A DNA stretch of 64,000 nucleotides from positions 186,001 through 250,000 of the forward strand of contig CADEFU010000003.1 of NCBI GenBank assembly GCA_902826695.1. The letters run 5' to 3'. Shown piece after piece: positions 13,995 to 40,233 of the stretch. Position 1 is the stretch's first letter; each line of letters starts with the position of its first letter. The DNA is from an uncultured Alphaproteobacteria bacterium. GTDB taxonomy: Bacteria > Pseudomonadota > Alphaproteobacteria > Micropepsales > Micropepsaceae. The translations under genes were made by a program, and so were the position numbers. The notes under the pieces were generated by a model, which was given only the letters and a program-made list of their open reading frames with translations, had not been told where the DNA came from and made no database searches.

Positions 13995-14340
13995 AAAGAA
14001 GATTGAACCACCAAGCACACCAAGGGCACCAAGACGCCTGTGGGCGATAGCGCACGCCGGCGTCGTGGCGACGCTGCAAGAAGATGTCTCACGCGAAGCC
14101 GCGAAGGCATGAAGTAAAGACGCGAAACACGTCCCTTTCTTCGCGCGCCGCAGGCGCGCAATCGATGGCAAGATAGGCGCTTCGCGCCTAAAGCCTGTCC
14201 CGACTTTTCGCGCCTTTACTTCATGCCTTCGCGGCTTCGCGTGAAACCCCCTTTCAGGAGCATCCGCCCAACCAACCTCGGCAAACCGGCCAGAGCCGCT
14301 TGGTGCACTTGGTGTGCTTGGTGGTTCAACCTTCTTACTT
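13995..14340. repeat. Nested imperfect inverted repeat, about 350 bp
   Basis: The non-coding stretch between the secreted protein and argS is built as nested inverted repeats. Outer arms 13995-14031 and 14301-14340 contain ACCACCAAGCACACCAAGG and its complement. Inner arms 14087-14127 and 14206-14245 match over about 40 bases with only a few mismatches (core GAAGCCGCGAAGGCATGAAG). Two short perfect hairpins sit in the middle: 14143-14159 (GCGCGCC, loop GCA) and 14174-14190 (TAGGCGC, loop TTC). No gene fits here. It resembles dispersed intergenic repeats of the CACCAAG / GCGAAG kind. Confidence 0.85.
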
Positions 14341-14390: not shown

Positions 14391-16190
14391 ATGGCAACCC
14401 TGACGCAAATCCTCACCACCCTCGCCGCCGACGCCTTCAAGGCGGAGGGGCTCGATCCCGCTTACGGCACGGTCACGACCTCCGACCGCCCGGACCTGGC
14501 GCAGTTTCAATGCAACGGCGCGCTCCCCGCCGCGAAAGCGCAAAAGCAAAACCCGAAGGCGCTCGCCGAAAAAATCGCAGCCCGCCTGAAAGCCGACCCG
14601 CGGCTGGCGAAGGTGGAGATCGCAGGCCCCGGCTTCATCAACATGGACCTCACCGACGAAGCGCTTGCCGCCCACATCGACAAGCTCCGTGACGACCCGC
14701 GCTGCGGCGTCCCCACGCGCGCCACCCCGCAAACCGTGATCATCGACTTCGGCGGCCCGAACATCGCCAAGACCATGCACGCGGGCCACCTGCGCTCGCT
14801 CGTCATCGGCGACGCGCTGCAGCGCCTGCACCGCTTCATGGGCGATAAGGTGATCAGCGACGTCCACTTCGGCGATTGGGGCCTGCAGATGGGCCAGCTG
14901 ATCACGGAGCTGAAACGCGAACAGCCGAACTTGCCCTACTTCGACGAGGCGAACAAAGGCCCGTACCCGAACCAATCCCCCGTCACGATGGAGGATCTGG
15001 AGCGCATCTACCCCAAGGCCAGCGCCGCCTGCAAAGCCGACCCTGAGCGCCTCGACGAAGCGCGCAAAGCGACGGCCGAGCTTCAGGCCGGCCGCCCCGG
15101 CTACCGCGCGCTGTGGGAACACTTTCGCGGCGTCTCCTTCGCAGGCGTGCGCCGCGAGTTCGACGCGCTCGACATCAGCTTCGACTGGTGGAAGGGCGAA
15201 AGCGACGTCGACAAGCTGGTCGCGCCCATGGTGGACGATCTGAAACGCCGCGGCCTGGCGGTCGAAAGCCAAGGCGCGCTCGTCATCCACATCGCGGAGG
15301 AGGGCGACAAACGCGAACTCCCCCCGCTGATCGTGCAAAAGAGCGACGGCGCGGCGCTGTACGAGACGACCGACCTCGCCACGATCGTGGACCGCGTGGC
15401 GAAGGCCGACCCCGACCTCATGCTCTACGTCGTCGGCCAACCCCAACACGACCACTTCGAAAAAGTCTTCCGCGGCGCCAGGAAAGCGGGCCTCGCCGGC
15501 AAAGCGACGCTCGAACACATCGGCTTCGGCACCGTCAACGGCCCCGACGGCAAACCCTTCCGCACAAGAGCGGGCGGCACGGTGAAACTCTTCGACCTGA
15601 TCGAACAAGCGAAACAAGAAGCGAGGAAGGCGCTGAGGGAACTGGCAATCGCGCGCGGCGAAAATCCACCGGAAGAACGCGACATGTCCCCCGAAGCTTT
15701 AGCGGAGGGGGAAGAGATCGCAAGACAAGTCGGCCTCGCCGCAATCAAATTCGCCGACCTGCAAAACCACCGCCTGACGAACTACGTCTTCGACCTAGCA
15801 AGGTTCACAAAATTCGAAGGCGAAACCGGCCCGTACCTCCAATACGCCGCCGTGCGGTGTAAGTCGCTGCAGCTGAAGGCGGTGCAGATGGGACACTGGC
15901 CGGACGCGATATCGCGCATCGAAAGTGACGCCGATCGGAATCTCGCGTTGACGCTCGACCGTTTGCCGGGCGCCATCGACCAAGCCACAGCCAAACGAGC
16001 GCCGAACGTCTTGTGTTCCTACGTATTCGAACTCGCACAAGCATTCAGCCGCTTTTGGGCGGCGCACAACATCGTCAACGAGCGTGACGAGGAACTGCGC
16101 GGCGCACGTCTCAGCCTGTGCGCACTAACCTTTACAGCGTTGACGCGATCACTGTCCCTTCTCGGCATCGAAGTTCCTGAGCGGATGTAG
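14391..16190 (+). CDS. argS: Arginyl-tRNA synthetase
   Basis: 599 residues. Class I aminoacyl-tRNA synthetase charging tRNA-Arg. The N-terminal tRNA-binding domain (1-110) is followed by the HIGH-type motif HAGHLRSLVIGD (130 onward) and by FGDWGLQMGQLI. The KMSKS loop is replaced by FRTRAGGTVKL, as in most ArgRS. The C-terminal helical anticodon domain ends LLGIEVPERM. Codon choice changes over the last 330 bases compared with the body, and a diverged copy of the final 50 codons lies directly downstream (16243-16395). The gene is intact, but its 3' end may have been replaced by recombination. Confidence 0.96.
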   Translation: MATLTQILTTLAADAFKAEGLDPAYGTVTTSDRPDLAQFQCNGALPAAKAQKQNPKALAEKIAARLKADPRLAKVEIAGPGFINMDLTDEALAAHIDKLRDDPRCGVPTRATPQTVIIDFGGPNIAKTMHAGHLRSLVIGDALQRLHRFMGDKVISDVHFGDWGLQMGQLITELKREQPNLPYFDEANKGPYPNQSPVTMEDLERIYPKASAACKADPERLDEARKATAELQAGRPGYRALWEHFRGVSFAGVRREFDALDISFDWWKGESDVDKLVAPMVDDLKRRGLAVESQGALVIHIAEEGDKRELPPLIVQKSDGAALYETTDLATIVDRVAKADPDLMLYVVGQPQHDHFEKVFRGARKAGLAGKATLEHIGFGTVNGPDGKPFRTRAGGTVKLFDLIEQAKQEARKALRELAIARGENPPEERDMSPEALAEGEEIARQVGLAAIKFADLQNHRLTNYVFDLARFTKFEGETGPYLQYAAVRCKSLQLKAVQMGHWPDAISRIESDADRNLALTLDRLPGAIDQATAKRAPNVLCSYVFELAQAFSRFWAAHNIVNERDEELRGARLSLCALTFTALTRSLSLLGIEVPERM

Positions 16191-16210
16191 ACGGACAGCC
16201 AAGCCTCCTG

Positions 16211-16233
16211 TCCTCCGCTTTAGCGAAGGAGGA
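16211..16233. repeat. Hairpin between argS stop and argS relic
   Basis: TCCTCCGCT followed by TT and AGCGAAGGAGGA forms a near-perfect stem. It lies exactly between the intact argS stop and the start of the diverged duplicate 3' end, so it may be an argS terminator or a junction element. Confidence 0.5.
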
Positions 16234-16242
16234 TCGACCTCA

Positions 16243-16395
16243 GCCCAGCGCTTCTCCAGCTTCTACGCCGCCCACCACATCCTAAGCGAAGAAAACGCCC
16301 CCCTCCGCGCCCGCCCAACCCTCTGCCACCTCGCCCTAACCCAACTCCAATCTACATTGACCATTCTCGGCATCGAGCCACCGGAGCGGATGTAG
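16243..16395 (+). pseudogene. Relic of a second argS 3' end
   Basis: Translated in frame with the TAG at 16393-16395, these 50 codons begin AQRFSSFYAAHHIL and end LTILGIEPPERM. They align without large gaps to the last 51 codons of the intact argS (AQAFSRFWAAHNIV ... LSLLGIEVPERM), about half of the residues being identical. The last 12 bases (GAGCGGATGTAG) are identical to the end of argS, and CTCGGCATCGA is shared just before. Upstream of it the homology stops at the hairpin. This is a genuine second argS tail, either the original end displaced by an incoming one or the remnant of an integration at the argS 3' end. Confidence 0.85.
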
Positions 16396-16449: not shown

Positions 16450-18957
16450 TCACCAGACCGACGGCGGCCAGTATACGCGCTCAAGCCCGTTGCGACGGAT
16501 GCTTTCCAAAATGCCCAGCGCTTCCTCCCGCCCGATGCCTGCGTCGCAAAGTCCAACCAGCACGATCGCGTATTCATTCTCGATTCGTGTACCGAAAACA
16601 CCTGGGTTGTCGGTGTTGATCGTAGCCAGGATCTTACCCTTGTGTCGCGTCAGTAGTGGAATGATTGGAATTTCCTTCGGTTGCGTAGCGCCCGAGATAC
16701 GCCAATTTGAGGAGGGATTGAACTCGAAGAGGATGCCGCGGCTCGATAAAAGATCGACGACCTTCCCTTGCGCCCACCGGACAGCTGGGACTAGAGAATC
16801 GTAAAGCTCTGCTGGCGCGAGACGCTCGGCGCGTGCCGTGAACGTCTTCTCATCGTGCACCTCACGATCGGCGAGTCGCGCCGCGGGCGACTTTGTGTTC
16901 TCACGCCATCTCTCACCGCCTTTGCGCCACACCGGTCCCGCACGGTAGTTGCCGATGTCTTCAAGCATCATCAGGCTTGGCGGCGGTAGTGCCCCCGGAT
17001 AGAGCTCAGCAAACGTTGACCAAAGCCACTCTTCAAGCTGCACGAGTTGCGTGCCGAACTGGCTACTTCCTTCGAGCATCATCTGCGTGTAAAGCCAAAG
17101 CAGTGCGTCGAACTGCTGGCCGGCCTCCGTTACAACATGCGAGAGGCGCTCCCGGTGAAACCGCTCAACATCCACACCAGCCGCAAGGCCGTGTCCGATC
17201 GTGTCGCCTTCCCGCATCTTGAGCCCGTCAGCTGCGCGCACCATCGCATACACACCCTCCAGCGGGTGCGCGAAGTCTTCACCGGCATGGCAGGTGAGGC
17301 CGAGCGGTGGCAGGGCAACTTGGTCGGCGCGGCTCGAATCACCCATCAATTGGAGCCATCGCCCGTATGTGACGGGATCGACATCATCATACTTCAGCGC
17401 CGCCAGGGCATCTTCATCACCGCGCGCGAGGTTGATCGCGAACGCCGCGACATCGGGCGGAACGTCGCGCTCTTGACCGGCAAAATCGATGCGCGCGATG
17501 CGAGAAACAAACCGCCGGTCTTGGGTCACGGCAACCGCGCATCGAAACTCGTGTAACGCCGCCGCTTCGTCGGCAACTCTCCGTCGCAACTCCTGTACGG
17601 CTTGCGGCGTCGCCGCGCGGTTCTTCAAGTCGAGTGACCGCTTGAAATGCACCGCAAAGCGGATGTCGGCTGCTTGAGTGTGGTTGGCGAGATCGAAGTC
17701 GCGCTCAAGCGCGTCCCATGTCTTAAGCTGTTGTAGGAATGAAGAGCCTCGCGTGCCGGGCAGCGGCGCAAAACGCAGTTCCACCCGGCGCAAGGATCCA
17801 CCCTGCAACAAGTAGAGCAAGTGATCGTGCCACCGCGTTCGCACGACAGTGTGATTGACCGGAAGATTCGGAAACTCCCCCGTCCACTTCATTGTATTGA
17901 ACATCTTGCGAAACCTGTTCAAACCTGGGTTTGTGGTCACGCCCTGTGTTCGCAGCCGGATGAACCGGCTCTTTGTGTGGATGTAAACGTCGAGGGCATG
18001 CTCCAGCCAGATCGCGTTGCGCCACTTGTCGGGCTGCTCGCTCTTGAGCAATGCGTTAAGTGTCGTAAACGCGCGTACAAGCATCCTGCGCTCGCAGCGC
18101 AGGCGCTTAAGACTCCGCCAGGGATCTATTGGGTCATTCTCGGAAAGCTCGATCTTTTCGTAAAGGCGGCCAAGCATGGAGGTGGGATCAGCTATATGTT
18201 CGATGACCCAGCGCAATCGATGCCGCTCGATAGCAAGCTCAGGGCCCCGAGATTGGTCTGCTATCGACTCCATGGGCATGTTGTCGAGGTCGATCGCACC
18301 CGAAATGAGACCTTGCCACAGCGCGTGCGCATTGCGGAGTGAACCCTGATGAATGTGAAGGTCGCTGACCCCTTGCCGAGTCAGCCGCTGCAAGTCGCGG
18401 TCAGCGATCCTGGCGACGATCGGCCACTCCGTCATGCGCTCCAATGCGCGCGGCTCATACGATCGGGCGAATGTGAAGCAAAGTAGGCTGTCCGCATCCA
18501 AAAATTCCGTACAGGTTAGCCACCCGCGCAACGAGGCCAGGTCAATGACGGGTTCGTCGGTCTCGAAACGAATCTTGAGCCCGAGGCGGGCGATCAGGAC
18601 CTCAAACCAACCCATTAGCCCGTCGCTGGCGTCGTCGGCGAGCGAATGCAAAATGGTTCCAATGTCCTCACCAGCCCAGCGTCGGTCGGATTCGAGCAAC
18701 CGCTCGGCGATCAAGTTGAGGATCCTCAGCCGCTCCTTCTGATCGAAGCATTGGCCCAAGCCCCGCCACCTAGCCCCGCGCTTTCCTGCGAGCGCCGTCA
18801 GCGGATCGGCCAACGTCTCTGTTTGTGCAAGCTTTATCGCCGCTGCAATGCGCTCCTCAGAGGAAAGCACAGCCAGCGCCAATTGCCCTTGAACATCCGA
18901 CGCAGTCACGCGTTTCAGGTCACTTTGTTGTTTTTCCGGCAGATCTTTGACTGGCAA
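16450..18957 (-). CDS. rdrB: RADAR adenosine deaminase RdrB
   Basis: 835 residues from a TTG at 18957, which overlaps rdrA by 38 bases; a GTG at 18909 is an alternative. Adenosine-deaminase catalytic features are all present but spread widely: HIH at 201-203, HAGE at 557-560 (zinc His and catalytic Glu), GHG at 588-590 and NTDNPG at 781-786 (zinc Asp; the following Asp of classical ADA is Asn). The roughly 350 residues between HxH and HAGE are much longer than in metabolic ADA, as in RdrB of the RADAR system. Paired with a large P-loop ATPase, this is expected to assemble into a defence complex deaminating adenine nucleotides or RNA during phage infection. The assignment rests on motifs and gene pairing. 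Confidence 0.88.
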   Translation of the reverse strand: MPVKDLPEKQQSDLKRVTASDVQGQLALAVLSSEERIAAAIKLAQTETLADPLTALAGKRGARWRGLGQCFDQKERLRILNLIAERLLESDRRWAGEDIGTILHSLADDASDGLMGWFEVLIARLGLKIRFETDEPVIDLASLRGWLTCTEFLDADSLLCFTFARSYEPRALERMTEWPIVARIADRDLQRLTRQGVSDLHIHQGSLRNAHALWQGLISGAIDLDNMPMESIADQSRGPELAIERHRLRWVIEHIADPTSMLGRLYEKIELSENDPIDPWRSLKRLRCERRMLVRAFTTLNALLKSEQPDKWRNAIWLEHALDVYIHTKSRFIRLRTQGVTTNPGLNRFRKMFNTMKWTGEFPNLPVNHTVVRTRWHDHLLYLLQGGSLRRVELRFAPLPGTRGSSFLQQLKTWDALERDFDLANHTQAADIRFAVHFKRSLDLKNRAATPQAVQELRRRVADEAAALHEFRCAVAVTQDRRFVSRIARIDFAGQERDVPPDVAAFAINLARGDEDALAALKYDDVDPVTYGRWLQLMGDSSRADQVALPPLGLTCHAGEDFAHPLEGVYAMVRAADGLKMREGDTIGHGLAAGVDVERFHRERLSHVVTEAGQQFDALLWLYTQMMLEGSSQFGTQLVQLEEWLWSTFAELYPGALPPPSLMMLEDIGNYRAGPVWRKGGERWRENTKSPAARLADREVHDEKTFTARAERLAPAELYDSLVPAVRWAQGKVVDLLSSRGILFEFNPSSNWRISGATQPKEIPIIPLLTRHKGKILATINTDNPGVFGTRIENEYAIVLVGLCDAGIGREEALGILESIRRNGLERVYWPPSVW

Positions 18958-21900
18958 GGCGCTTATGGTGCGCGCCTGCTTTACCTTTGAGAAGGGATAG
19001 AAACTCAGCAGTTCGGATCAGCTTTTCTTCGAAGTCCGCGAACACGCTTTTCAGTTCGCGCCCGGCGCCTTCGCGCGAGTCGAGTTTGCTTACCCTGTCT
19101 TTGAACATTTTACCCCAACCCGGGGGAGCTGGTTCCCCGAGTCGCGCAAGAAAGCCTTGTGCCCCTTCCACTCCCATGGACGTGAACGAAATATCGGGAA
19201 TCATAGAGAACGACACACCGTGCAGCAGCGAAGGGCGTGGTTCCTCTCGTGGCTCTCGCGTCACCTGCGTGATTTCAAGTCGTATCAGCGTAAGTTCCAA
19301 ACTGGCGCGGTATCTGAGATAGTAGCGTGAAATCCAGCGAACAAACTCTTGCCAATTGTCAACGACGTTTGTCAGTTCACGTTTTTCTATCGCAATCCGG
19401 CGCGCCTTGTGGCAAACGGCCCCGTACTCGATGTGCACCAATGCTGGAAGGCACGGCATGAGCGCCCAAAGATAAAGGAACAGGGATTTTGAATATCGAG
19501 CCAAGTCGACATCCTGGTGGCGGCTTGGATCAATTTGCAACAAGGCCCACTTCGTAGGTGTTTTCGCCAAGGACTGGCAGCCTTTGACTGAACTCGGAAA
19601 CGCCGCGTCGAAGACGGAGTCGTCCTCCGGCCATGCTCCGTTCACATCTGGTCCAAGACCTGCAGCGTCAGCAACAAACAAACGCAAGGGCACCTTCTTC
19701 CAGACGTCCCCCGGCTGAACCTCTGTCGGGTTGCTGATCAGCTCTCGTACTACCTCTTCAAGTTTCCCGGGGAGAGGGTCCGCGGTAAGTCGTTCGAACG
19801 CTTCACGTGAGTAACCGTTTTGTTGAATCCAATGGCGCACTGCGTTGAAACTTGGGATGGTGTAGCGATTGCCCTCCCAGAACGTCGCCGTACGCTCAAA
19901 CGGCCATTTCTCACCAGCAGCCTCCCGATCTTGGTCCACCCGTTTCGGCGGCAGTTGGTTTAGCAAGATTCGCGAAGCGTGCCAGGCACGCCGCATGTCG
20001 TTGATCAACGCTTGGTAGGACTCGAAACTATCAGCCAGAACGTCATCTATTTCGCGCTGGGCGCCAGACACTGGTTCTTTAAGATGTAGCGCCTTTGTCA
20101 CAAACTTGTTCCAGCCCTCAACTGTAGTCTTTGCCAAACTGCTTGCTGCAGTCCGCCCAAGTGCCGTTTCGGCAAAGTGATTGTAGTAGTCATAGTGGCG
20201 ACGCAGCGAGTCGATTTCTGCACACTTTTCTGCAAACTCCCTACGCGTTTCGATATCGGCGAGCAGCTCACCATTCTCTACTTTGGTGGCCGGTGGAGTG
20301 AACCGCCCTATTTCGAGGCTACCAAGAGGTAGAACGACTTCCTTCAGGTACGTTGCAAGGAGTTCCTCGCTCGGCCCCGGTTTGACCTCGACTTTGCCTT
20401 TCTCAATGAGATCTGCTTGAGCCTCATGCGCGGTAGCGGCCCGGCCCTCTTTCTTTGCCGCAGTTGTCGCTTCGCCGATGCCCGCCATTGGCTGCGTCCA
20501 CAAGCGGTCCACGTCAAAGAAAAATAGCTCGGGCCATCGATAGATCAGATTTGTATCCCAATCCTTCGAGAAGCGAAGAGGCTCCCCTTGGGACTCGATC
20601 CGAAGCCCAGGCTCGAAAGCAATATCGGGAAGACAATCCAAATCGTGGAAGTAGATACAGTTCGCCGGTAACACTGAATGCTGAATCTGTTTCGCAACGC
20701 CAAACAGTGTCTGCGGTTGCATTTTCGGAAAGAACGGCGTCATACCGATCATGTTCTGTCCTGAAGGCCGCGGCAGCAATCCGATCGGGACGTTGGCGTC
20801 GGGGTCTTCCCGCAAGGGCAGGGCCAGCCCCAGATCCAACCTGAATCCGATGAAGGAATATCCGTATGTACCACGCTGAAGTGTGCGGTCGCCGATGCGG
20901 AAGTATCGCTCACCTCGCCAACAACTGTCGACGCTCTGTTGCTGCAACCATGCCCCGACATTCGTATCCGCGTCAGAGAAGCGATCGATCAAGAGATTGT
21001 TCTCTGGCGCCTCGAATAATATCACGGCCAACCGCTTCGGTCGGCGATGGGGCAAATGGCGGGACACCAAAACCGAGTTTGGCGTCGAACCTGTAAGACC
21101 GACCAGCGCACGCAATTGCCGGATCGACCGTGGCCGTAACTGCTCACCGTACCGGTGCCGGAACAGCCACCACGCAAGAAAGCTCTCCAACTTGTTCTTA
21201 TCGTCCTCCGATGCCAACTCGCGCAGGCGGAGGCGACGGTTTTGAAACGCTGCCACCTTGATGCGAAGGAAGTCGTCACGAAAGTCGGAAAGTCGCTGCC
21301 GACAATATTGATCAAAAGAGAGGCCGCCGACGAGGGTTTCAAAATCATTGAAGAACTCTTTGTCCCGCGCCCATTCCTTGTCTTTGTCACCCTTTTGGCC
21401 ATTGGAGGGGTCGCCAATCTCACTGAAGTCCGCCAACTCATCGACTGGCTCAAACGAAAGAAAAAATCGCAACGGCCGCGGCAGGATTTTTTCGAGATAC
21501 TCTTCAATTTGATGCCGAACGAGGCGACGCCACGTGGTTGGTGTGCCGCCGGTCGGGTCCGCCGAAACCTCGACAGGATCCTTCAGATCGCTCAACTGAC
21601 GCCAGGTCAAGCTTTGCCGCATCGAGCGCAAGTGACCGGCGACGATGGTCACGATGCGCGGGTGGTCCAGAAAAATGCGGATCGTATGCAGAATATCGGC
21701 GGTGGTTTGCGGCGACACATCGGTGTCATCGACAAAGGTCACCAAGAGCTGTGCTTTGAAGTAGTCCAAGTACTCGTTGACGTACGAGCGCCACATTGCA
21801 ACGCGGTTATAGGACTCGGCGCCCGTGCTTCCGAGCTTGGTCAAATAGTTCTCGAGGTTGTAGCTATACGCTCTGATGGCCTCGTCGCGCTCGCTCTTCG

Positions 21901-22675
21901 CGAGGTACCAACCTTTCGCGACTTGATCGTGCAGTTTCTGTACTAGCGCTTCGCCCTGCGTCACCCGCTCGCTATCCGTGTGCGAAGCGCTCTTGCATCG
22001 CATGATCTCGCCCTTCAATTTCGTGATCATGAGGGCAAAGAGAGCCTCCATGACCGATTGGGTTTGTTCAAGATCGGAAGGCACCAGAAGTGGCAAGACG
22101 CATGCCGTGTGTCGCTTTTCGACCCGGGGTTCATGTCCGCGATGAGGTTCCCTGAAGAGACGTTCGACGAGTCCTTTAGTATCTTCGTACGGCCAACTAT
22201 CGAATCTTGTCTTCTCACTCTTGCTTTCTGGGTTGGCTTCTTTAGCGGCATTCAGGTCTTTACGCTTCTTCTCGACTTCCTCGCTAAAGTAAGTGCGCAG
22301 GCCCTTCAGATAATTGGTAACGAAGTTCCATCGACCATCGGCCCACTTGTCCGCATCCCCGAGGCATTTCAAGAACTCTCTGATTGTGAGCAGCATCGAC
22401 GTCTTGCCGGAGCCGCGCGCGCCGTCGATGAAGAACACATGGCGTGGTCTCCGAAATTGTTGATTGTCTACGTATTCGTGGGTCGTCCGCGCCACCACGC
22501 CGAGCTGGGCTTCGCCGTCGGCAATTTCATATACGCGTAACAAGATGTCTCTTAGAACGCGATCCTGCCGCATTGTAAGTTTGTTGGTAGGCAGTACTGA
22601 GGCGCCAGTCCAGTCGATGTCGCCGAGCGGCCCGTGATCGATTGTTGTCAACGAATCCGTCTTGGTAATACCCAT
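18920..22675 (-). CDS. rdrA: RADAR ATPase RdrA
   Basis: 1251 residues. The ATG at 22675 has a GAGGAA ribosome site 6-7 bases upstream, so the longer frame starting at 22753 is not used. The Walker A motif is GARGSGKT at 85-92; Walker B is FVDDTDVSP near 314-322, followed by a sensor-like strand RIVTIVAGHL. The rest is a long, mainly helical C-terminal region with no recognised domain. In RADAR, RdrA is the ring-forming ATPase that works with the RdrB deaminase to restrict phage. The 3' end overlaps rdrB, so the two are co-translated. The protein looks longer than typical RdrA as I recall the family. Codon use is less GC-biased than in neighbouring genes, consistent with acquisition. Confidence 0.87.
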   Translation of the reverse strand: MGITKTDSLTTIDHGPLGDIDWTGASVLPTNKLTMRQDRVLRDILLRVYEIADGEAQLGVVARTTHEYVDNQQFRRPRHVFFIDGARGSGKTSMLLTIREFLKCLGDADKWADGRWNFVTNYLKGLRTYFSEEVEKKRKDLNAAKEANPESKSEKTRFDSWPYEDTKGLVERLFREPHRGHEPRVEKRHTACVLPLLVPSDLEQTQSVMEALFALMITKLKGEIMRCKSASHTDSERVTQGEALVQKLHDQVAKGWYLAKSERDEAIRAYSYNLENYLTKLGSTGAESYNRVAMWRSYVNEYLDYFKAQLLVTFVDDTDVSPQTTADILHTIRIFLDHPRIVTIVAGHLRSMRQSLTWRQLSDLKDPVEVSADPTGGTPTTWRRLVRHQIEEYLEKILPRPLRFFLSFEPVDELADFSEIGDPSNGQKGDKDKEWARDKEFFNDFETLVGGLSFDQYCRQRLSDFRDDFLRIKVAAFQNRRLRLRELASEDDKNKLESFLAWWLFRHRYGEQLRPRSIRQLRALVGLTGSTPNSVLVSRHLPHRRPKRLAVILFEAPENNLLIDRFSDADTNVGAWLQQQSVDSCWRGERYFRIGDRTLQRGTYGYSFIGFRLDLGLALPLREDPDANVPIGLLPRPSGQNMIGMTPFFPKMQPQTLFGVAKQIQHSVLPANCIYFHDLDCLPDIAFEPGLRIESQGEPLRFSKDWDTNLIYRWPELFFFDVDRLWTQPMAGIGEATTAAKKEGRAATAHEAQADLIEKGKVEVKPGPSEELLATYLKEVVLPLGSLEIGRFTPPATKVENGELLADIETRREFAEKCAEIDSLRRHYDYYNHFAETALGRTAASSLAKTTVEGWNKFVTKALHLKEPVSGAQREIDDVLADSFESYQALINDMRRAWHASRILLNQLPPKRVDQDREAAGEKWPFERTATFWEGNRYTIPSFNAVRHWIQQNGYSREAFERLTADPLPGKLEEVVRELISNPTEVQPGDVWKKVPLRLFVADAAGLGPDVNGAWPEDDSVFDAAFPSSVKGCQSLAKTPTKWALLQIDPSRHQDVDLARYSKSLFLYLWALMPCLPALVHIEYGAVCHKARRIAIEKRELTNVVDNWQEFVRWISRYYLRYRASLELTLIRLEITQVTREPREEPRPSLLHGVSFSMIPDISFTSMGVEGAQGFLARLGEPAPPGWGKMFKDRVSKLDSREGAGRELKSVFADFEEKLIRTAEFLSLLKGKAGAHHKRLASQRSAGKTTK

Positions 22676-23008
22676 CGCATTCCTCAATTGACATTTTACA
22701 GGGAACACCCACGCTAGTTGATACGCTATGTTGGCTATACTCAAGAAATTCATTCGCCCAAAGGCAGAACGAGCATTGATGACTTCTCGCGTTGAGTGTC
22801 AGGGAAGAGTTTTGCGCTGCTACATGCTGCTCTAACTTGGAGAACGATAGCTGGCGCACTTGGGAGGCTGTAAGAAGCTGAGAGAACCTTCCGCGTGGAT
22901 GGGCACGCCCGGCCTTAGTAGCGCCGATGCTTAATCCGGCCGATTGGTCAGGCGGTTGACGCTTGATTGTCGATCAAGAGGGCACAAGCATTCTGCGCTC
23001 TTTGACAT
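22676..23008. other. Intergenic region upstream of rdrA
   Basis: About 330 bases without a convincing gene, unusually AT-rich near rdrA. On the minus strand TTGAGT and TATCAA are spaced 15 bases apart some 50 bases upstream of the rdrA start, a weak promoter candidate. A perfect hairpin CTTGAT-TGTCG-ATCAAG lies at 22962-22978, just past the end of the membrane gene, without a U-run. The region may give rdrA its own promoter rather than strict co-transcription with the membrane gene. Confidence 0.4.
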
Positions 23009-23689
23009 TCAGCGGAACGGGCTCTGCGGCGCGGGAAGGTACTGTTGCGCGACAGCCCAAGTCCAATCGATCGCCAAAAAGACCAAAAACACGAAGAGGA
23101 CGCGGACATTTGCACCAGGGTGCCAAAACAAAAGCAAAGCGACCGCCGCTATTATTGCGGCGGCGACTAGCAAATCGCCCGCCTCAGCAACATTGGGCAG
23201 TTCGACCTCGCGCAAGCCTCCGATGCCGATGTTGGACGCAGTCAGAATGTAAACAACCAAAACAGCAAATGCGGCGACGTGCACAGGATAATGCAGCGCA
23301 GTGCGTCTCCAACCGAACTTGCCCGGTGCGTTCACAAAGAATGAGGTTAGACCAAATCGGCGAAAAGAGAACGCGACGACGATCAAGAGTTGAACGGCCA
23401 CTGGGATCAATTGCTCGAACGCTGGCGACAAAGGGAGTGCGATCCACGCGAGCGCCACGACAATGGTCGACTTGATGATCGCCATGACGGGCAACCAATA
23501 GTCCACAACGGTGGCGGCAAGGCCACTAAACGATAGCGCTCTCAGCACAATCGCAAAGCCACTGAGCACCAGAGGTACAGCACCAATTGCAAGAACCGCT
23601 TCCTCGCGGATAAACGCTACCCAGTCTCTCCCAAGGTCGAGAGGCGTCCGCCTCTGCACGCTTTCGTCCGTTACCTGTTTCGTGCTCAC
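23009..23689 (-). CDS. Multi-pass membrane protein next to RADAR
   Basis: 226 residues from a GTG at 23689 with a G-rich ribosome site (GGGGGGAAC). About six membrane helices are visible, for example AVLAIGAVPLVLSGFAIVL, a central pair around residues 65-110 and the C-terminal VLFVFLVFLAIDWTWAV. The N-terminal 30 residues are polar and likely cytosolic. No domain recognised. RADAR loci are known sometimes to carry a third, membrane-protein gene (SLATT or Csx27-type). This one occupies that position and orientation, so an accessory role is likely, but it lies 333 bases from rdrA and homology to either type is not evident by eye. Confidence 0.7.
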   Translation of the reverse strand: MSTKQVTDESVQRRTPLDLGRDWVAFIREEAVLAIGAVPLVLSGFAIVLRALSFSGLAATVVDYWLPVMAIIKSTIVVALAWIALPLSPAFEQLIPVAVQLLIVVAFSFRRFGLTSFFVNAPGKFGWRRTALHYPVHVAAFAVLVVYILTASNIGIGGLREVELPNVAEAGDLLVAAAIIAAVALLLFWHPGANVRVLFVFLVFLAIDWTWAVAQQYLPAPQSPFR

Positions 23690-23855: not shown

Positions 23856-24319
23856 GGCAGCATCGCGTTCACCGAGCGCAGCGTCCTGCGGCCTTAGGGG
23901 CGATCACCTGAAGACGCGAGGCTAGCGATGACAACCGTCGAGGGAAATCGGGATGCCAAGCTCTCTGACGTGTCGCAGATAAGCGGTCATGCCACTTCGA
24001 CAGGCTTAGAGACGAAGTGTGGGACGAGATGAGATATGGGGACGCGTTACCCACTCCCTCAAGTGAACGCATGTCTTGGCGTTTGGTCTTGGGCCCGAGT
24101 CTTGGCGTTCGGTCTTGCAGATCGGTCTTGGCACTTTGTCTTGGGCTCGCGCTCGGGCGAGACGCGAATTTCGCCTACCAGGCGAGCCCGCTCCGCCCTG
24201 CGACACTTTAGTTCTCTTTTTGTTCTTGAATCTTTCGGCGTTTTCGGCGATATTCGGCGCTGATCTTCCCTATTGGTGGAAATGCGTCTGGCGCCGGTTC
24301 CGGGCGACCGGCCGCAAGC
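23856..24319. other. Non-coding right edge of the RADAR island
   Basis: About 460 bases with no supported gene. It contains the 13-bp tandem repeat described separately and, at 24236-24263, several TTTCGGCG / ATTCGGCG repeats close together. No tRNA, integrase or recognisable attachment site is seen. Confidence 0.5.
24074..24151. repeat. 13-bp tandem repeat, six units
   Basis: Six consecutive 13-base units begin TCTTGG (TCTTGC in the fourth): at 24074, 24087, 24100, 24113, 24126 and 24139. Units 1 and 3 differ by one base (TCTTGGCGTTTGG, TCTTGGCGTTCGG). The first six bases are conserved and the last seven vary. The period is not a multiple of three, so this is not a coding repeat. It has the look of iterons or protein-binding sites. 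Confidence 0.8.
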
Positions 24320-25153
24320 TCACGGCGCCGGCCGCGCCTGCGCCAGCCGCATCATGCGAACCGCAACCTCGGTCCCCGCGTTCTGATTTTGCCCGGTGAC
24401 CAGCCGGCCGTCCTCGACCACATGGTTGGCGAAGATATCGCGAAACGCGGTCGCGGCCGTGAAGACGGCGCCGGCGGCGCGCAGTTCGCGCTCGGGGTGC
24501 ATCGGCGTGATCGTGATGCCCAACTCTTCGACTTGCTTGTTCGTCACCGCCGTCAAGCGGCGGCCCTTGACCAGCGGCGCGCCGCTTTCGTCGGTCGCCT
24601 TCAACAGGCCAAGCGGGCCGTGGCAAACGCCGCCAACCACGCGGCCCGCTTTCCACGCCGCGGAAATCTTCTGGCCCAACACCTCGGATTGCCCAAGGTC
24701 GTACGCCGCGCCCCAACCGCCGGCGAGATAGACGATGTCATAGGCCGCGAAGTCCACGTCGTCGATCTTCAGCGATCGGCTGACCTTCTGGCGGAACGCC
24801 GCGTCGCCGTGAAGCCGCTTGTCGGCGCGCGATTCGACGAACCAAAGGAACGACATCGGATCGATCGGAATCTCGCCGCCGGCGATGCTGGCGACGTCAA
24901 CCTGCATGCCGCCATCCAAAAACACATAGTAAGGCGCCGTCATCTCGGAGGCGAACACACCCGTGCGCGCGGTGCCGGGCGAAAGCTCGCCGTGGCTGGT
25001 GGTGACGATCAACGCCTTGCCGCCCGGCATTTCAACGCGCGGCCCCGCATACTCGGGATGCAGCCCAAGGCCTGAGAACAACGGCGGCAACCCAAACCAC
25101 GCCGCCACCGCCAACGCCGCAACGAACGCAATCAGAAATCCCAAAACTCTCAT
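24320..25153 (-). CDS. DJ-1/PfpI family protein with N-terminal membrane anchor
   Basis: 277 residues from the ATG at 25153 (AAGGGA about 8 bases upstream). A single hydrophobic helix (residues 3-25) is followed by a DJ-1/PfpI domain: KALIVTTSHG, DIVYLAGGWGAAYDL, and the nucleophile elbow GGVCHGPLGLL with its conserved Cys, then LTAVTNKQVEELG. Family members act as glyoxalases, chaperone-like deglycases or cysteine hydrolases. The His next to the Cys supports a catalytic role. Membrane anchoring or export of a PfpI domain is less usual. Isolated gene. Confidence 0.85.
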   Translation of the reverse strand: MRVLGFLIAFVAALAVAAWFGLPPLFSGLGLHPEYAGPRVEMPGGKALIVTTSHGELSPGTARTGVFASEMTAPYYVFLDGGMQVDVASIAGGEIPIDPMSFLWFVESRADKRLHGDAAFRQKVSRSLKIDDVDFAAYDIVYLAGGWGAAYDLGQSEVLGQKISAAWKAGRVVGGVCHGPLGLLKATDESGAPLVKGRRLTAVTNKQVEELGITITPMHPERELRAAGAVFTAATAFRDIFANHVVEDGRLVTGQNQNAGTEVAVRMMRLAQARPAP

Positions 25154-25392
25154 TGGCAACATCCCTTTAGAGCCCCGCCGATGCGGGCCGGACACCACAA
25201 AACCACCCCCGGCCCGCCACGGCTTTGATGCAGGTCAGCTTTGCGTGTGCTGCGAAGATGGACGGATGAGCGATCGGACAAGACGCTCCGCTCGCCCGGC
25301 CATGACGAGTTTTTTTGAGGCGGCAGAGGCCTCGCACGATCGCGAGGCTAGCCGTATTCTACCGGCCACGCCACGGCCGGGAGGACGAACCC

Positions 25393-25977
25393 ATGCCTTT
25401 CTATCACGACGGCCATCGCGCCCTTCAGGCGCGCTTCGGCTCGACCCCGCTGGCCGAACGGCTGGAGCAGGTGACCCACCGCACGCGCCTCACCGGCGAC
25501 GACAAGGCGTTCGTCGAAAGCATGAGCTTCTTCTTTCTCGCAACTGCGGACGCGCAAGGCCGCCCCGACTGCTCCTACAAAGGCGGCGCGCCGGGCTTCG
25601 TGCGGGTGCTCGCCCCGGATCTCATCGTGTTCCCCGATTACGACGGCAACGGCATGTTCCGAAGCCTCGGCAATATCGCGGTCAACGCGGGCGTCGGCCT
25701 GCTGTTCGTCAAAATGGGCGAGGCGCCGAAACGCCTGCGCATCAACGGCCGCGCCACGGTCAGCTTCGACGACCCGCTGCTTGAGAGCGTGCCCGGCGCC
25801 CAAGCGCTCGTGCGCGTCACACCGGAACACGTCTTCCCGAACTGCCCGCGTTACATCCACGATCTGGAACACGCCAAGCCCTCGCCCTACACACCGGCGG
25901 CGGGCGAAACCCCGCGCGAACCCGCCTGGAAATCCTTCGACGTCTTCAAAGACGTGGTCCCGCCGCGAAAGCGCTGA
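25393..25977 (+). CDS. Pyridoxamine-phosphate-oxidase-like flavin-binding protein
   Basis: 194 residues from the ATG at 25393 (GGAGG upstream). The fold is recognised from SFFFLATADAQGRPDCSYKGG, LIVFPDYDGNGMFRSLGNI and the long strand GVGLLFVKMGEAPKRLRINGRATV, typical of the split-barrel FMN-binding family of PNPOx-like general stress proteins. These bind FMN, F420 or haem and reduce or oxidise small molecules; the actual substrate cannot be told. The C-terminus has CPRYIHDLE, common in this subgroup. Confidence 0.85.
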   Translation: MPFYHDGHRALQARFGSTPLAERLEQVTHRTRLTGDDKAFVESMSFFFLATADAQGRPDCSYKGGAPGFVRVLAPDLIVFPDYDGNGMFRSLGNIAVNAGVGLLFVKMGEAPKRLRINGRATVSFDDPLLESVPGAQALVRVTPEHVFPNCPRYIHDLEHAKPSPYTPAAGETPREPAWKSFDVFKDVVPPRKR

Positions 25978-26033
25978 CGGCATCAAGATGGCGCCGTGCT
26001 AAGGTGCAGGCGCAAATGGGGCAGGCTCACGTA

Positions 26034-26618
26034 ATGACGAGACATACGACTCAGCTATTCGCGGCCGCCGTTCTTCTGATCTTGACGGCAAGTGTCGTGT
26101 GGGCCGCGCCACCACTGCCACCACCGCCACCACCGCCGCCGCCACACTACGGTCCGAATTCGCCGCCGCCGCAGCCGGCCTCTGCCTTTCAGGCCTGCCG
26201 CGATCGCAGCACCCTGCGCTTCGAGCGGTCTTTCGCGTTTCAAATTCGGCCATGCACGATCGTGGCGACGACGAAGGGGCGCAAGCTCGAACTCTCCTCG
26301 GTCAGTGGTCCGGCGACCTTCACGGACGCGAAGGGCAAACGGCACTACCCGACCAAAGTGATCTTCAGGAGTTTCGTGCCCCTCATACCGCCCACCTACA
26401 CCCGTTTCGACATGTTCAACATCAAGCAGACCGGTCGAACGCTGAGCGTGCGCCTGCCGCACCGGCTGCCCTCGGTGCTCGACCCTTACGTCGTTTGGCT
26501 GCCACGAAGCATCTGCCGCGCCGACACGTGGCTGGTCAGCATGGCCGTCTCCGACGGCACCGAAACGAAACCCTTCGGCATCATCAACAGCATGTGCGGC
26601 CCCAACGCCCGCCGGTGA
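26034..26618 (+). CDS. Exported protein with polyproline linker
   Basis: 194 residues; the ATG at 26034 opens a signal peptide (MTRHTTQLFAAAVLLILTASVVWA). Right after cleavage comes a run of ten prolines encoded by repeated CCACCG/CCGCCG triplets, then a further PPPQP. The mature domain (about 50-194) contains two or three Cys (FQACRDRS, CTIVATT, SICRADTW) and strands such as TRFDMFNIKQTGRTLSVRL. Function unknown. The proline run may span the peptidoglycan or act as a flexible tether. Confidence 0.72.
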   Translation: MTRHTTQLFAAAVLLILTASVVWAAPPLPPPPPPPPPHYGPNSPPPQPASAFQACRDRSTLRFERSFAFQIRPCTIVATTKGRKLELSSVSGPATFTDAKGKRHYPTKVIFRSFVPLIPPTYTRFDMFNIKQTGRTLSVRLPHRLPSVLDPYVVWLPRSICRADTWLVSMAVSDGTETKPFGIINSMCGPNARR

Positions 26619-26747
26619 CACAACCGGCCCGACCCTTGTGCCACATGTGCCACTTCACGGAAGAGCTCACCCGCCCAAATCCGGGCGCAGTCTCGTACGA
26701 TGCGACGCGACACGCGGCGGCCGACCTGATGTAGAATCGGCCAGATC

Positions 26748-27752
26748 ATGATCAACCGCGACCCGGAAACGAACTTCGAAGCGCTGTGGCAGACGTTCCG
26801 CGACCGCTACCCCTTCTTCGCGCTCAGAAACGTCGACTGGCAAGAGCAGTACGAGACCTTCCGGCCACGCGTCACGCGCGCGACCGGCGACGCGGAGCTC
26901 TTCGATATCCTCTGCCAAATGCTCGAGGCGCTGAACGACGGGCACGTCGAACTCAAAGCCAGAATAGGCGAGGGCGGGACAACGCGATCCTTCACCGCCG
27001 AAAAGCAGCCCCGCTTCTATCGCGAATTCACGGACCGCGAGATCAAAGACCTCTTCAAAACGACCGAGAAAACGCTGGCCGCCCACGGCTTCGCCCGCCC
27101 GGAAGAGACAGAGGCTTGGCTGCTCCGCTACGGCCGCTCGCCAACCATCGGCTACCTGCGCATTCTCGAGCTCGAGGGTGTCGGCAAACAAAAGCTGACC
27201 GCCGCCTTGGACAAGATCGCCCAGGACTTCGCGGACCTCGAAGGCTTCATCATCGACATTCGCGACTGCCCCGGCGGCGATGATCACGTCGCGATCGCGA
27301 TCATCAACCGCTTCTGCGACGCCAAGCGAACCGCCTTCCACCGCAAGACGAAGATCGGCCCGGGCGAAGACGACTTCACACCTTTGAAGACCTGGCACAT
27401 CGAGCCTGAGGGCGACACGCAGTTCACCGGGCCGATCGTCGTCCTCAGCTGCGATTCCGTGTTCAGCGGCGGCGAGGCGTTCGCGCTGGCGATCAAGGAA
27501 CTGCCGCATGTGACGCTGATCGGCGAGCACACGAACGGCATCTTCTCCTACACGCTCGACAAAAAGCTGCCGAACGGCTGGGCGTATTGCCTGTCCTACC
27601 AAGTGTACCTGTCGGCGGACATGGTCTGCTACGAGGGCAAAGGCGTGCCGGTCGACATCGAGCTGCTGAACACGAAAGCCGATATCGAAGCCGGCGTCGA
27701 TCCGCTGATCATCCGCGCGCTCGATGTGCTGCGGTCGCCCGTTGTCTCGTGA
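26748..27752 (+). CDS. Cytosolic S41-family peptidase
   Basis: 334 residues without signal peptide. LNDGHVEL near residue 65 is the usual S41 N-terminal motif; IIDIRDCPGGDDHVAIAI forms the glycine loop; and VFSGGEAFALAIKELP holds the catalytic Ser-Gly-Gly-Glu region, followed by GEHTNGIFSYTLDKKLPNG. No PDZ domain is visible. This is the tricorn/C-terminal-processing fold in a compact version. It is better preserved than the S41 relative at 7573-9012. Substrate unknown. Its 3' end overlaps the convergent phosphopantetheinyl transferase by 44 bases. Confidence 0.86.
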   Translation: MINRDPETNFEALWQTFRDRYPFFALRNVDWQEQYETFRPRVTRATGDAELFDILCQMLEALNDGHVELKARIGEGGTTRSFTAEKQPRFYREFTDREIKDLFKTTEKTLAAHGFARPEETEAWLLRYGRSPTIGYLRILELEGVGKQKLTAALDKIAQDFADLEGFIIDIRDCPGGDDHVAIAIINRFCDAKRTAFHRKTKIGPGEDDFTPLKTWHIEPEGDTQFTGPIVVLSCDSVFSGGEAFALAIKELPHVTLIGEHTNGIFSYTLDKKLPNGWAYCLSYQVYLSADMVCYEGKGVPVDIELLNTKADIEAGVDPLIIRALDVLRSPVVS

Positions 27753-28440
27753 CGAGAGCCGCAGAGGTGTCGGCCTCCTCGATCACGTAAGCGCAAAAGC
27801 GCTGCGGCCCGCCCGGCGCCTGAACGACACGCAGCGTCGGTGTCAGCTCGAACTCGAACGCGTCAAGACCGAACGGCAATCCCTCGCCGATGGATTTCAA
27901 CGCCGCTTCCTTGAGCGTCCAAAACTGGAAGAAGGCCCGCGCATCCGCCGCTTCGATGGCCTTGGCCTCGGCTTCGCAGAAGTAGCGTCGCGCAAGCTCG
28001 CCTGTCGCCGTCGCCCGCGTTCGATCCTCGATATCGACACCGATGTCATGGGTCGAAGACCACGCCCCCAGAAAGCCGAACCGGCAGGAGGAAAAGCTGA
28101 ACGAGGTCCCCGGCACTTGCGGAAGATACGGGCGGCCTTTCTCACTCTCAGCAAAGCCGATCTGCGCCAGCGGCGCCGAAGACCCAAGCGCCAGCGCGCC
28201 GCAATAGCGGCGAAAGGCACGCTGCTGCTTGAACCGCGCCCGACGTTCCTCGGCCAAGAAGCGCTCCGCCTTCGCCAACTCGCCGGCTGACAGTACCGAC
28301 GCGCAACGCCGCGCCACCTCCGCGTCGTGCGAAACCGGCGCGAACACCACGCAAGCCGCATCACGCGCCGGTGCCGGCGTCCAATCCCGCGCGTTGGCCG
28401 CAAACCAGTCTTGAACCCAGGCGCTATCGTCTCGCGTCAT
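27709..28440 (-). CDS. Sfp-type 4'-phosphopantetheinyl transferase
   Basis: 243 residues from the ATG at 28440. Transfers phosphopantetheine from CoA to the Ser of carrier domains. The Mg/CoA motif is GVDIED (134-139) and the second signature is FWTLKEAALKSIGEG (173 onward). Length and the N-terminal pseudo-repeat fit the Sfp/EntD type rather than AcpS. The start overlaps the end of the NRPS gene by 17 bases, so it is co-translated and very likely activates that enzyme's T domain (Ser620). It is the last gene of the diaminopropionate operon. Confidence 0.93.
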   Translation of the reverse strand: MTRDDSAWVQDWFAANARDWTPAPARDAACVVFAPVSHDAEVARRCASVLSAGELAKAERFLAEERRARFKQQRAFRRYCGALALGSSAPLAQIGFAESEKGRPYLPQVPGTSFSFSSCRFGFLGAWSSTHDIGVDIEDRTRATATGELARRYFCEAEAKAIEAADARAFFQFWTLKEAALKSIGEGLPFGLDAFEFELTPTLRVVQAPGGPQRFCAYVIEEADTSAALVTRQRATAAHRARG

Positions 28441-32701: not shown

Positions 32702-32737
32702 AGCATCACCTCACTTGCGGGCGGAGCTTATCGCCAC

Positions 32738-33808
32738 TCAATCGAAGTATCTCTCGAGCGTACCCCGCCGGCGAATATCGGTCGTCACGCAGTGGAACCC
32801 GCCGCCCAGCAACTTCGAATGCCGCAGCTTGATGGCGATCACGTCGAGCCCCTCTTTCTCAAGCAGCTTGATGAGCGCCGTCTGGTCTCGATCGACGACG
32901 ACCAGGTTCGGATTGATGCTGAAGGCATTCATGTCGATCCAGTCGCTGCCGATGCACTTCGAGAGGTAATCGGCGTCGTACCGCCCCGTGTTCTCCATGG
33001 GCGGACTATAGATCACCTTCCACTGCTTGAGGATTGGGGGCAGCGTGTCGTCGGTCAGACGGGCGGGATTGCAGAGGATCAGGCCGGGCCGCAGCGCCAC
33101 GAAGGTCGAGTCGATGTGACTGCCGTAGTAGACGTCTTTAAGGAAATGGACGCGGAACTTCGGGCCCAGCATCGTTTGCAGCCATTGGCCGCCCATTTCG
33201 TTTCCGGTGGCGCTCACCAAATAGACCAAGTCGTTGCCGAAGCGCAAAACGTTGGCCGCATCGAAAGCCGGTTCGTCGTTTCGCGGTGTGGGCTTCTCCA
33301 AATCGACGTCGAACAGCGAGTCGAGCAGCATGGGTCTTGGCGCGCTGTACCACTTCGCGCCCGCGTTCATGTACTCGATCAGCAGCTTGCGATAGCTGAA
33401 CGACTCCTGTTGGCGGCTGCGGATGACGTTGGGCGTTTCGATGATCTGGTCGCCGATCACCAGCAAGATGTCACGGGGACAATAGTTGTAATATCCCTCG
33501 GACTCCCAGTTGATGGTCGAGAACTTGGCCTCATGCGGCCACGTCTCCGGCCGCTTGACGGTGACACCTTGTTTCTCGAGGGCACGGATGAACGTCTGCA
33601 GATCCTCTTCCGTCTCCTCGATGATTCGTTGCGGAAAAGGGCCGCGGGGAATTGCCTCCAACGCACGATCGGGAAACTCGGCAAGCTGCGTGCTTCGGTC
33701 GGGCGTTGGAAAGCGCGCGTTCAAGGGATTGCCGACGATCACTTCTTCGAGCGGATCCCATTCGTTCCAGCTCCAAACAGGTCCGGTAGATTTAACCTTG
33801 GCATCCAT
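32738..33808 (-). CDS. AGAT-type amidinotransferase
   Basis: 356 residues; the ATG at 33808 with GAGGAG upstream is chosen over a much longer frame. Family: arginine:glycine amidinotransferase. The catalytic Cys is in LGGGFHCVTTDIRRRG (Cys340), with His231 in GSHIDSTF and Asp183 in AFDAANVLRFG. Such enzymes move the amidino group from arginine to a primary amine, releasing ornithine. Set between diaminopropionate synthesis genes and the NRPS, the likely acceptor is diaminopropionate or a related amine, giving a guanidino amino acid; this is inference. It lies 36 bases upstream of the NRPS. Confidence 0.9.
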   Translation of the reverse strand: MDAKVKSTGPVWSWNEWDPLEEVIVGNPLNARFPTPDRSTQLAEFPDRALEAIPRGPFPQRIIEETEEDLQTFIRALEKQGVTVKRPETWPHEAKFSTINWESEGYYNYCPRDILLVIGDQIIETPNVIRSRQQESFSYRKLLIEYMNAGAKWYSAPRPMLLDSLFDVDLEKPTPRNDEPAFDAANVLRFGNDLVYLVSATGNEMGGQWLQTMLGPKFRVHFLKDVYYGSHIDSTFVALRPGLILCNPARLTDDTLPPILKQWKVIYSPPMENTGRYDADYLSKCIGSDWIDMNAFSINPNLVVVDRDQTALIKLLEKEGLDVIAIKLRHSKLLGGGFHCVTTDIRRRGTLERYFD

Positions 33809-33908
33809 GTCGTGTCGTCTCCTCGGGCACGTCGGTCGAGCCGATACGCGTCCCCTGCGTGCTTTGGGTGGTCGAATTTCTGATCTGTAAGCCGCCCTTG
33901 CGCGGCCG

Positions 33909-34934: not shown

Positions 34935-34946
34935 GTGATCGTTCCC

Positions 34947-35915: not shown

Positions 35916-35987
35916 GACGCAATCTCTTCAAGTCGAGATTCTAAAGCACTGTCACCGGCGAATGTCGCGCGAGACGCAGCGACGTAT

Positions 35988-36119
35988 CCCCGGGCCGAAG
36001 CAGCGTGACAAACCGGGGCCGAAGCATGCTTAATGCCCAGCCACTCATTTGCACCCGTCCGCCAAGGTGAGTTTCAACATTTCGAAATGAATACGCGATG
36101 AACGCGCGCACGCGTTCAC
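35988..36119. promoter_or_regulatory. Direct repeats and palindromes upstream of the sbnA operon
   Basis: CGGGCCGAAGCA (35991-36002) recurs as CGGGGCCGAAGCA (36014-36026). Further out are a perfect 12-base palindrome CATTTCGAAATG (36079-36090) and a perfect inverted repeat TGAACGCG-CGCA-CGCGTTCA (36100-36119). No gene covers this stretch. These are candidates for operators of the downstream operon or a terminator of the gene ending at 36206. Confidence 0.45.
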
Positions 36120-36205
36120 CGCCGACACGCAAGGGCCGAGACCGTGCTGTGATCGAACGCACCAATTTGCAGTCGATCCCGTCCCCTCAAACCTGCCGCT
36201 GCTTT

Positions 36206-36541: not shown

Positions 36542-36650
36542 CGAATCCTCCTGGTGAGCCCGTTATAAGGTGTCACGAAATGGAGCCAAATCCTCATCAC
36601 AAGTCAATGCCAACTGGCGCACAGTCCAAGCGGATTGCTTGCAGTAAGAT

Positions 36651-39084: not shown

Positions 39085-40233
39085 ATGGCCGAACCGGCCC
39101 AAACCGATCTGAAACGAACCCCGCTCTTCGCGCTCAACGCGGAACTCGGCGGAAAGATGGTGCCGTTCGCCGGCTACGAAATGCCGGTGCAGTTCCCGGC
39201 CGGCATTTTGAAAGAACACCTGCACACGCGCGCCGCCGCCGGCCTCTTCGACGTCTCGCATATGGGCCAGGCGTGGCTGCACCTCGAAGGCAAGGGCACC
39301 CACGACGATATCGCGGCGCTGCTCGAAACACTCACGCCCGGCGACATCAAAGCGCTCAAGCCCGGCCAGATCCGCTACACGCTGCTCTTGAACGACGAAG
39401 GCGGCATCCGCGACGACTTCATGGTCAGCCGCCCGCTTAGCGCTGAGAAGGCCGGCACTCTGTTCCTCGTCGTCAACGCCGCAACCAAGGACGCCGACTT
39501 CGCGCACATCGCGGCCAAGCTGAAGGGCAAAGCGAAACTCGAACGCCTCGAAGACCGCGCGCTCATCGCGCTTCAGGGCCCGAAGGCCGCCGCCGTTCTG
39601 GAACGCATCGTCCCGGGCGTTGCCGCCATGACATTCATGACGATCGCGACCTTCACCTGGGAACGCGCGGAGCTCTTCGTCTCCCGCTCCGGCTACACCG
39701 GCGAGGACGGCTACGAAATCTCTGTGCCGGGTGCGATCGCGACCGCCTTCGCCCGCGTGCTGCTGGCGCAAGCGGAAGTCGCACCCATCGGCCTCGGCGC
39801 GCGCGACAGCCTGCGCCTCGAAGCGGGCCTCTGCCTCTACGGCCACGACATCGATGAGCAAACGACGCCTGTCGAAGCAAACCTGACCTGGGCCATCGGC
39901 AAGCGCCGTAAGCTGGAAAAAGGCTTCCCCGGCGCCGACAAGATCATGGACCAGCTGTTCAACGGCGCGAAACGCGTGCGTGTCGGTATTAAACCCGAAG
40001 GCCGCGCTCCGGCCCGCGAAGGCGCCGAGATTGTCGACGCGAACGGCGCTCCCGCCGGTCGCATCACCTCCGGCGGCTTCGGCCCCTCGGTGAACGGTCC
40101 GATCGCCATGGGCTATGTCCGCGCAGATCTTGCGAACGATGGGACCGCCTTAAGCCTCATTGTCCGCGGCCAAAAACTCGCCGCACGCGTCGTACCGATG
40201 CCCTTCGTTCAAAAACGCTTCCACAAACCTTGA
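39085..40233 (+). CDS. gcvT: Glycine cleavage system T protein (aminomethyltransferase)
   Basis: 382 residues. Transfers the methylene group from the aminomethyl-lipoyl H protein to tetrahydrofolate, releasing ammonia. N-terminal [26 protein letters not shown] and DVSHMGQ are diagnostic; [13 protein letters not shown] and [16 protein letters not shown] carry folate and catalytic residues (the Asp in DSLRLE region). First gene of gcvT-H-PA-PB, under a tandem glycine riboswitch; ribosome site GAGAGAG upstream. Confidence 0.98.

Follow-up and report, generated by a model that had tools for sequence, protein, structure and literature searches.

The argS gene and its second 3' end

The DNA analyzed here, a stretch of 64,000 nucleotides called the window, carries an intact argS gene at 14391-16190 (+ strand). 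It encodes a 599-aa ArgS in which Arg_tRNA_synt_N, tRNA-synt_1d, and DALR_1 were each found above cut-off in a Pfam profile search. The gene body (14391..15857, + strand), with the N-terminal and catalytic domains, is vertically inherited according to the body tree, and the identity between relatives falls sharply directly past the stretch TGPYLQYAAVR. The remaining codons, approximately 110 (15858..16190, + strand), form the tail in use; they code for the DALR anticodon-binding domain and appear to be xenologous, as judged from dN/dS, amino acid identity, and GC3. Upstream of argS, nested inverted repeats lie at 13999-14335, with arms at approximately 14000-14030 / 14300-14335 and 14090-14125 / 14215-14250.

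The argS gene is followed by a 43-bp spacer (16191..16233, + strand) that ends in a palindrome, TCCTCCG-CTTTAGCG-AAGGAGGA, at 16211-16233, where a hairpin is predicted, but a weak one. A second argS 3' end begins exactly where the palindrome ends (16234..16395, + strand; codon-aligned 16243-16395). This relic lies downstream of the intact gene in the same orientation and is truncated at its 5' side, and alignments and dN/dS mark it as the displaced native end of argS. It holds no + strand open frame of its own of at least 40 aa. The codon-aligned part matches ArgS residues 548/549-599 with one codon missing. E-values were 1.3e-7 and 7.5e-9 genome-wide and 4e-12 in a local tblastn, a spread that depends on the search space; the similarity to the argS end is therefore far beyond chance.

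The preliminary description of this DNA had aligned the 50 codons at 16243-16395 to the last 51 codons of argS, and this was confirmed (55% aa identity, E 1e-7 to 4e-12). It had also drawn attention to 12 final bases shared by both copies and to a codon style that differs between the body and the tail. The bases GAGCGGATGTAG do end both argS (16179) and the relic (16384), but alone they are weak evidence because they encode ERM*, a common ArgS ending, and because argS of other family genera (loci L046, L047, and L048) ends in the same 12 bases. The difference in codon style was reproduced, GC3 falling from 0.83 in the body to 0.70 in the tail. GC3 was lower in the tail than in the body in all 6 readable members of the genus; elsewhere in the family this is not the rule.

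The genome of the window is referred to as G000; the genomes closely related to it in GTDB are MAGs from environmental samples with the label Alphaproteobacteria. The double tail was present in 3 of the 6 genus members with a readable argS tail, namely G000, its 93% sister G007, and G002 (2 of the 5 readable relatives of G000). Since the same tail-spacer-relic structure is found in three independent assemblies, an assembly artefact is excluded. G001, G003, and G008 have a single argS tail. Outside the genus, a tail match was obtained in 82 genomes of the family, and 81 of these likewise have one tail. In the remaining genome, G100, a second partial tail was rejected as a relic; it lies at a contig end in a MAG with 8% contamination. 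No second argS gene was found in the genus, there being one per genome except in four fragmented MAGs where it is missing (G004, G005, G006, and G010, of 11 genus MAGs, one of the four being 92% complete). In G009 the contig terminates inside argS. The variable region next to argS, described below, may have disrupted assembly or binning in these five genomes. The argS of G008 (L035, last 870 bases) has an in-frame insertion of approximately 30-40 codons just inside the tail, which is another repeat (GGPSRSDGGG...GDHRAAMVEG).

The spacer palindrome is the same in G000, G007, and G002, with G007 and G002 identical at 25 of 26 positions and G000 shorter by 3 bp, and in all three genomes the right junction with the relic lies at its end. 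Relatives without a relic also lack the spacer. The palindrome belongs to a dispersed family, with 21 hits in the genus and 0 in a reversed control, and its stems covary (TCCTCC/GGAGGA, TCCGCC/GGCGGA, and TCCCCC/GGGGGA). Several copies are intergenic or just past gene ends, including two at the same place past a cinA-like gene in G000 and G007, and the spacer palindrome may therefore simply be the 3' flank of the donor's argS. Another copy lies in frame inside argS (15687..15712, + strand), where it codes for approximately SPEALAEG and adds about ten codons (DMSPEALAEG) to the catalytic domain. This copy occurs in G000 and G007 only and is absent from the argS of G001, G002, G003, and G008. 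Two of the approximately five copies of the repeat in the genome are thus in or beside argS.

Divergence of body, tail, and relic

Body, tail, and relic were compared between genomes for divergence at nonsynonymous and synonymous sites. Between G000 and G002 the argS body had dN 0.10 and dS 0.44, and relic codons 1-34 had dN 0.10 and dS 0.41, indistinguishable from the body (p = 1). Between G007 and G002 the values (dN/dS) were 0.13/0.51 for relic codons 1-34 compared to 0.11/0.48 for the body. The dN and dS values of the relic are rough because its alignment covers only 51 codons. If the relic had been dead since the split of G000 and G002, approximately 24 nonsynonymous changes would be expected, and 7 were observed; neutral drift of codons 1-34 since the split was rejected (P 5e-6). 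Since these codons diverged like the body, the data indicate that the relic is the native argS tail, vertically inherited and used until late in both lineages.

In contrast, the tail in use was approximately three-fold more diverged than the body between G000 and G002, with dN 0.31 and dS 1.19 (synonymous p 1e-5, nonsynonymous p 3e-10). Amino acid identity of the tail was 55.7 +/- 1.7% in pairs within the genus that have 80-85% body identity, and 74.1 +/- 4.2% (minimum 65%) in pairs from other genera. These comparisons indicate that the tail in use is foreign, or far more diverged, and was not inherited together with the body, which is itself vertically inherited. The genus-wide divergence of the tail, the drop in GC3, and the fall in identity past TGPYLQYAAVR suggest that the argS tail has probably been replaced repeatedly in the genus, both where a relic is present and where it is not.

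A separate phylogeny of the tail had been proposed in the preliminary description as a way to show whether it is foreign. The body tree groups G000 and G007, with G002 next, and the tail tree has the same topology (G002 sister to G000 and G007, support 98/93). The foreignness therefore rests on the deeper branches of the tail and on the native relic, not on a misplaced branch. Nothing closer than 63% aa to the tail was found as a donor in 96 genomes of the family, and an order-wide search gave the same set.

The last part of the relic behaved differently from its first part. Between G000 and G002, relic identity was 85% for codons 1-34 compared to 48% for codons 35-51 (36% without the final conserved block); the two parts differed significantly for G000 and G002 (p 8e-7) and for G007 and G002 (3e-5). 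Between G000 and G007, codons 35-51 had eight synonymous changes in 12.5 sites compared to four in 25 for codons 1-34 (p 0.006). The swapped ends are still proper ArgS endings, that of G002 being TRTRVLSLLGLDVPERM. These data indicate that the last 17 or so codons of the relic were swapped again, differently in each genome. The DNA adjoining each cassette at the relic therefore includes a different argS end, which is the best hint that the cassettes arrive with an argS end attached.

Cassettes between argS and gcvT

In most members of the family, gcvT, gcvH, and gcvP lie within approximately 0.4-2 kb of argS. In the window, gcvT, the usual gene after argS by family gene order and the right edge of the variable interval, is at 39085..40233 (+ strand). 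The argS-gcvT gap is 22.9 kb in G000 and 23.9 kb in G002, with mostly unrelated contents, and approximately 1 kb in G001 and G003; the double tail is absent where the gap is 1 kb. The interval thus combines variable content, no integrase found, and a flanking core gene that is itself diverse.

The relic in the window is followed by a putative defence-like cassette. An RdrB-like adenosine deaminase (16450..18957, - strand) matched PADLOC RdrB (E 6e-19), and an RdrA-like KAP NTPase (18920..22753, - strand) matched Pfam KAP_NTPase and PADLOC RdrA (E 1.5e-8). The PADLOC matches are significant, but the scores against the curated NCBIfam equivalogs for RdrB (NF041744, 97.9 bits, cut-off 800) and RdrA (NF041743, 41.7 bits, cut-off 600) are far below cut-off, and we therefore call the operon RADAR-like only. 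Upstream in the operon, a hydrophobic 226-aa protein (23009..23689, - strand), identified from its sequence, had no match in Pfam, PADLOC, or NCBIfam family searches and is possibly an RdrD-like membrane protein. No RdrB was found at E 1e-20 in 384 other alphaproteobacterial genomes.

Three unrelated AT-rich operons lie 3' of the relic in G000, G007, and G002, pointing towards argS, with 40-55 bp between the end of the last cassette gene and the relic stop in each. In the window, the RdrB-like gene is convergent with argS, and its stop is 55 bp from the relic stop. The G007 cassette (L032 1491-5907) encodes a 488-aa protein, a PRTase-like 591-aa protein, and a nucleoside-phosphorylase effector-like 393-aa protein (PADLOC 'effector, PN superfamily', E 8e-25), and this three-gene operon is a candidate defence system. 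The G002 cassette consists of a NUDIX gene and genes for two membrane proteins. Cassette GC was 53-57% compared to 63% for the window. BLAST homology between G000 and G007 ends exactly at the relic stop codon (16395); these two genomes have the same spacer and type of tail but different cassettes. The same relic followed by different cassettes in relatives marks the argS end as a site where incoming DNA has landed repeatedly. The preliminary description had pointed to a comparison of relatives with and without the RADAR-like locus; relatives with a 1-kb gap indeed lack the double tail, but G007 and G002 carry it with other cassettes at the same place, so the double tail is separable from the RADAR-like cassette.

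A 99-bp match to G007 at 24199-24297 was considered as the right flank of the cassette and rejected. It is a dispersed repeat of 60-100 bp with GTTC-N7-GTTC, resembling the alphaproteobacterial LexA box, and has several copies in most genomes of the genus. Between the RADAR-like operon and gcvT, approximately 14 kb (24300-38600) have host-like GC and encode an NRPS-like 1425-aa protein, a phosphopantetheinyl transferase-like protein, an amidinotransferase/ADI-like protein, an S41 peptidase, DJ-1/PfpI, and PNPOx. This region is almost wholly missing from other genomes of the genus.

Proposed displacement of the argS end and comparison with known systems

We consider it reasonably probable that the locus arose by repeated one-sided recombination anchored in argS, that is, C-terminal displacement, at the edge of an argS/gcvT defence hotspot. 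The argS 3' end would be the left rim of a variable hotspot that reaches to gcvT. Incoming DNA from related bacteria would pair with the conserved TGPYLQYAAVR stretch before the anticodon-binding domain, and the donor's argS tail and flank would replace everything downstream of this anchor. The join at the other end would form without long homology, in this locus exactly where a palindromic repeat borne by the donor ends. The old tail, 5'-truncated, would be left as a relic just past the new stop codon, with native codons 495 to 541/547 deleted in the exchange. Because argS is essential, events that restore a full ArgS would be selected, and the gene in the window does encode a full-length ArgS with a foreign tail and DALR_1 over cut-off. 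In smaller events of this kind, the adjacent cassette and, with it, the last 17 or so relic codons would have been replaced, leaving three relatives with three operons and three relic ends at one point.

Such a route would explain the anchor, the foreign tail and hairpin, the codon deletion, and the truncated native end, and the locus does have a conserved 5' anchor followed by a sharply diverged 3' part. It would also predict a non-homologous or microhomology join at the other end; the right join sits at the end of the palindrome in all three genomes. The shared hairpin spacer would equally fit a single ancestral event and a later re-replacement of the tail. The one-sided route is inferred, as are the order of events, the travel of cassettes with argS ends, and separate displacements in the G002 line and in the G000/G007 line.

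Other explanations were weighed against this one. In the preliminary description, an incoming element seemed to have replaced or duplicated the argS end, in the manner of islands that integrate at the 3' ends of essential genes. Replacement and restoration of the gene agree with our data, and the relic is native. An integrase-bearing island or prophage with its own argS end could have integrated and afterwards shed both the integrase and the greater part of its body, with later elements reusing the site. Phages that integrate in protein genes are known to replace long gene ends, argS is restored, and the site was reused by different cargo. However, this classical model predicts an integrase and a displaced end on the far side. 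Between argS and gcvT, neither G000 nor G002 has a tyrosine recombinase match (PF00589 profile), and none was found on the G000 contig C3, within 300 kb of the G002 locus (C10), or on C72 of G007. When tails and relics were aligned locally with the cargo of the three genomes, no second argS end appeared on the far side, and no core repeat was found at the right side of any cargo; the displaced end adjoins the tail directly, not beyond the RADAR-like genes as expected of an island. The foreign sequence begins approximately 50 codons before the relic does, and the junctions therefore lack a common core. Searches of viral, phage, and plasmid collections yielded distant argS matches only and no tail-only attP-like copy; the three phage/viral loci examined contain near-complete argS genes. 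Papers on argS as a site of integration were sought, but nothing relevant was returned, the term mostly matching 'ARGs'. The island model is thus not supported, and we regard it as unlikely.

Double homologous recombination alone, by which the whole argS-gcvT interval with a ready-made tail-hairpin-relic would be exchanged after one ancestral displacement, seems quite unlikely as well. It agrees with the core-gene flanks of raised diversity and lack of integrases described for such hotspots (PMC5635113) and with the hairpin spacer common to G000, G007, and G002. Yet relic codons 1-34 were under argS-like constraint through most of the divergence of G000/G007 and G002 and were therefore still a working tail then, and divergence between G000 and G002 is far greater in the tail than in body or relic. 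Tandem duplication of the native end, with one copy decaying and the other evolving fast, is highly improbable. The copies do lie side by side and read in one direction, but it is the relic, not the tail, whose divergence is that expected of a native end; synonymous sites of the tail are also more diverged, and the relic begins exactly at the palindrome closing a spacer that relatives without a relic lack.

Defence cassettes of the genus might, tentatively, travel as units of an argS end plus a cassette, with the 3' end of argS serving as a homology arm that moves along. Recombinants could then be filtered by selection for a functional ArgS, and stacked ends might record successive immunity swaps made without a recombinase; we consider this less likely than not. 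It is still an open question by what route defence islands lacking recombinases are exchanged. In argS, each exchange would leave a scar, from which single swaps could be counted, placed in order, and dated. A model of one-sided recombination with its anchor in a flanking core gene can be tested by sequence alone and in any transformable strain. These data also serve as a warning for phylogenetic work, since a housekeeping marker gene can have a chimeric last part.

Phage 21/e14 integrates in icd, and the incoming DNA supplies the replaced end of the gene. As with such 3'-end islands and phages, the argS end would be supplied by incoming DNA; unlike them, the argS locus has no integrase found and no att repeats, and its displaced end is on the near side.

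Integrase-free hotspots with recombining, diverse core-gene flanks have been described (PMC5635113). Likewise, the interval from argS to gcvT varies, lacks integrases, and is flanked by an unusually diverse core gene, but the argS locus keeps a physical scar, the displaced gene end, that would record individual events. Core defence hotspots of Pseudomonas aeruginosa have fixed core-gene flanks and interchangeable defence systems, as argS-gcvT has interchangeable cassettes between fixed core-gene flanks, and transfer by flank homology has been proposed for them (PMC10250203). Their flanks are other genes, and the passages of that paper on these hotspots describe no displaced flank ends.

C-terminal displacement is known from rhs genes (Jackson 2009, PMC2935791), and effector displacement from Vibrio T6SS clusters (Kirchberger 2017, PMC5361080); homology-facilitated illegitimate recombination was proposed for both. 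As in argS, the 5' part is conserved, the 3' part is replaced, and the old 3' end lies downstream in the same orientation. The rhs and T6SS loci are polymorphic toxins in which diversity is the product, whereas argS is an essential tRNA synthetase that needs its function restored, and its payload would be the neighbouring cassette. Taken together, our best reading is that the C-terminal displacement known from rhs and T6SS loci has here affected an essential gene, one that borders a defence hotspot.
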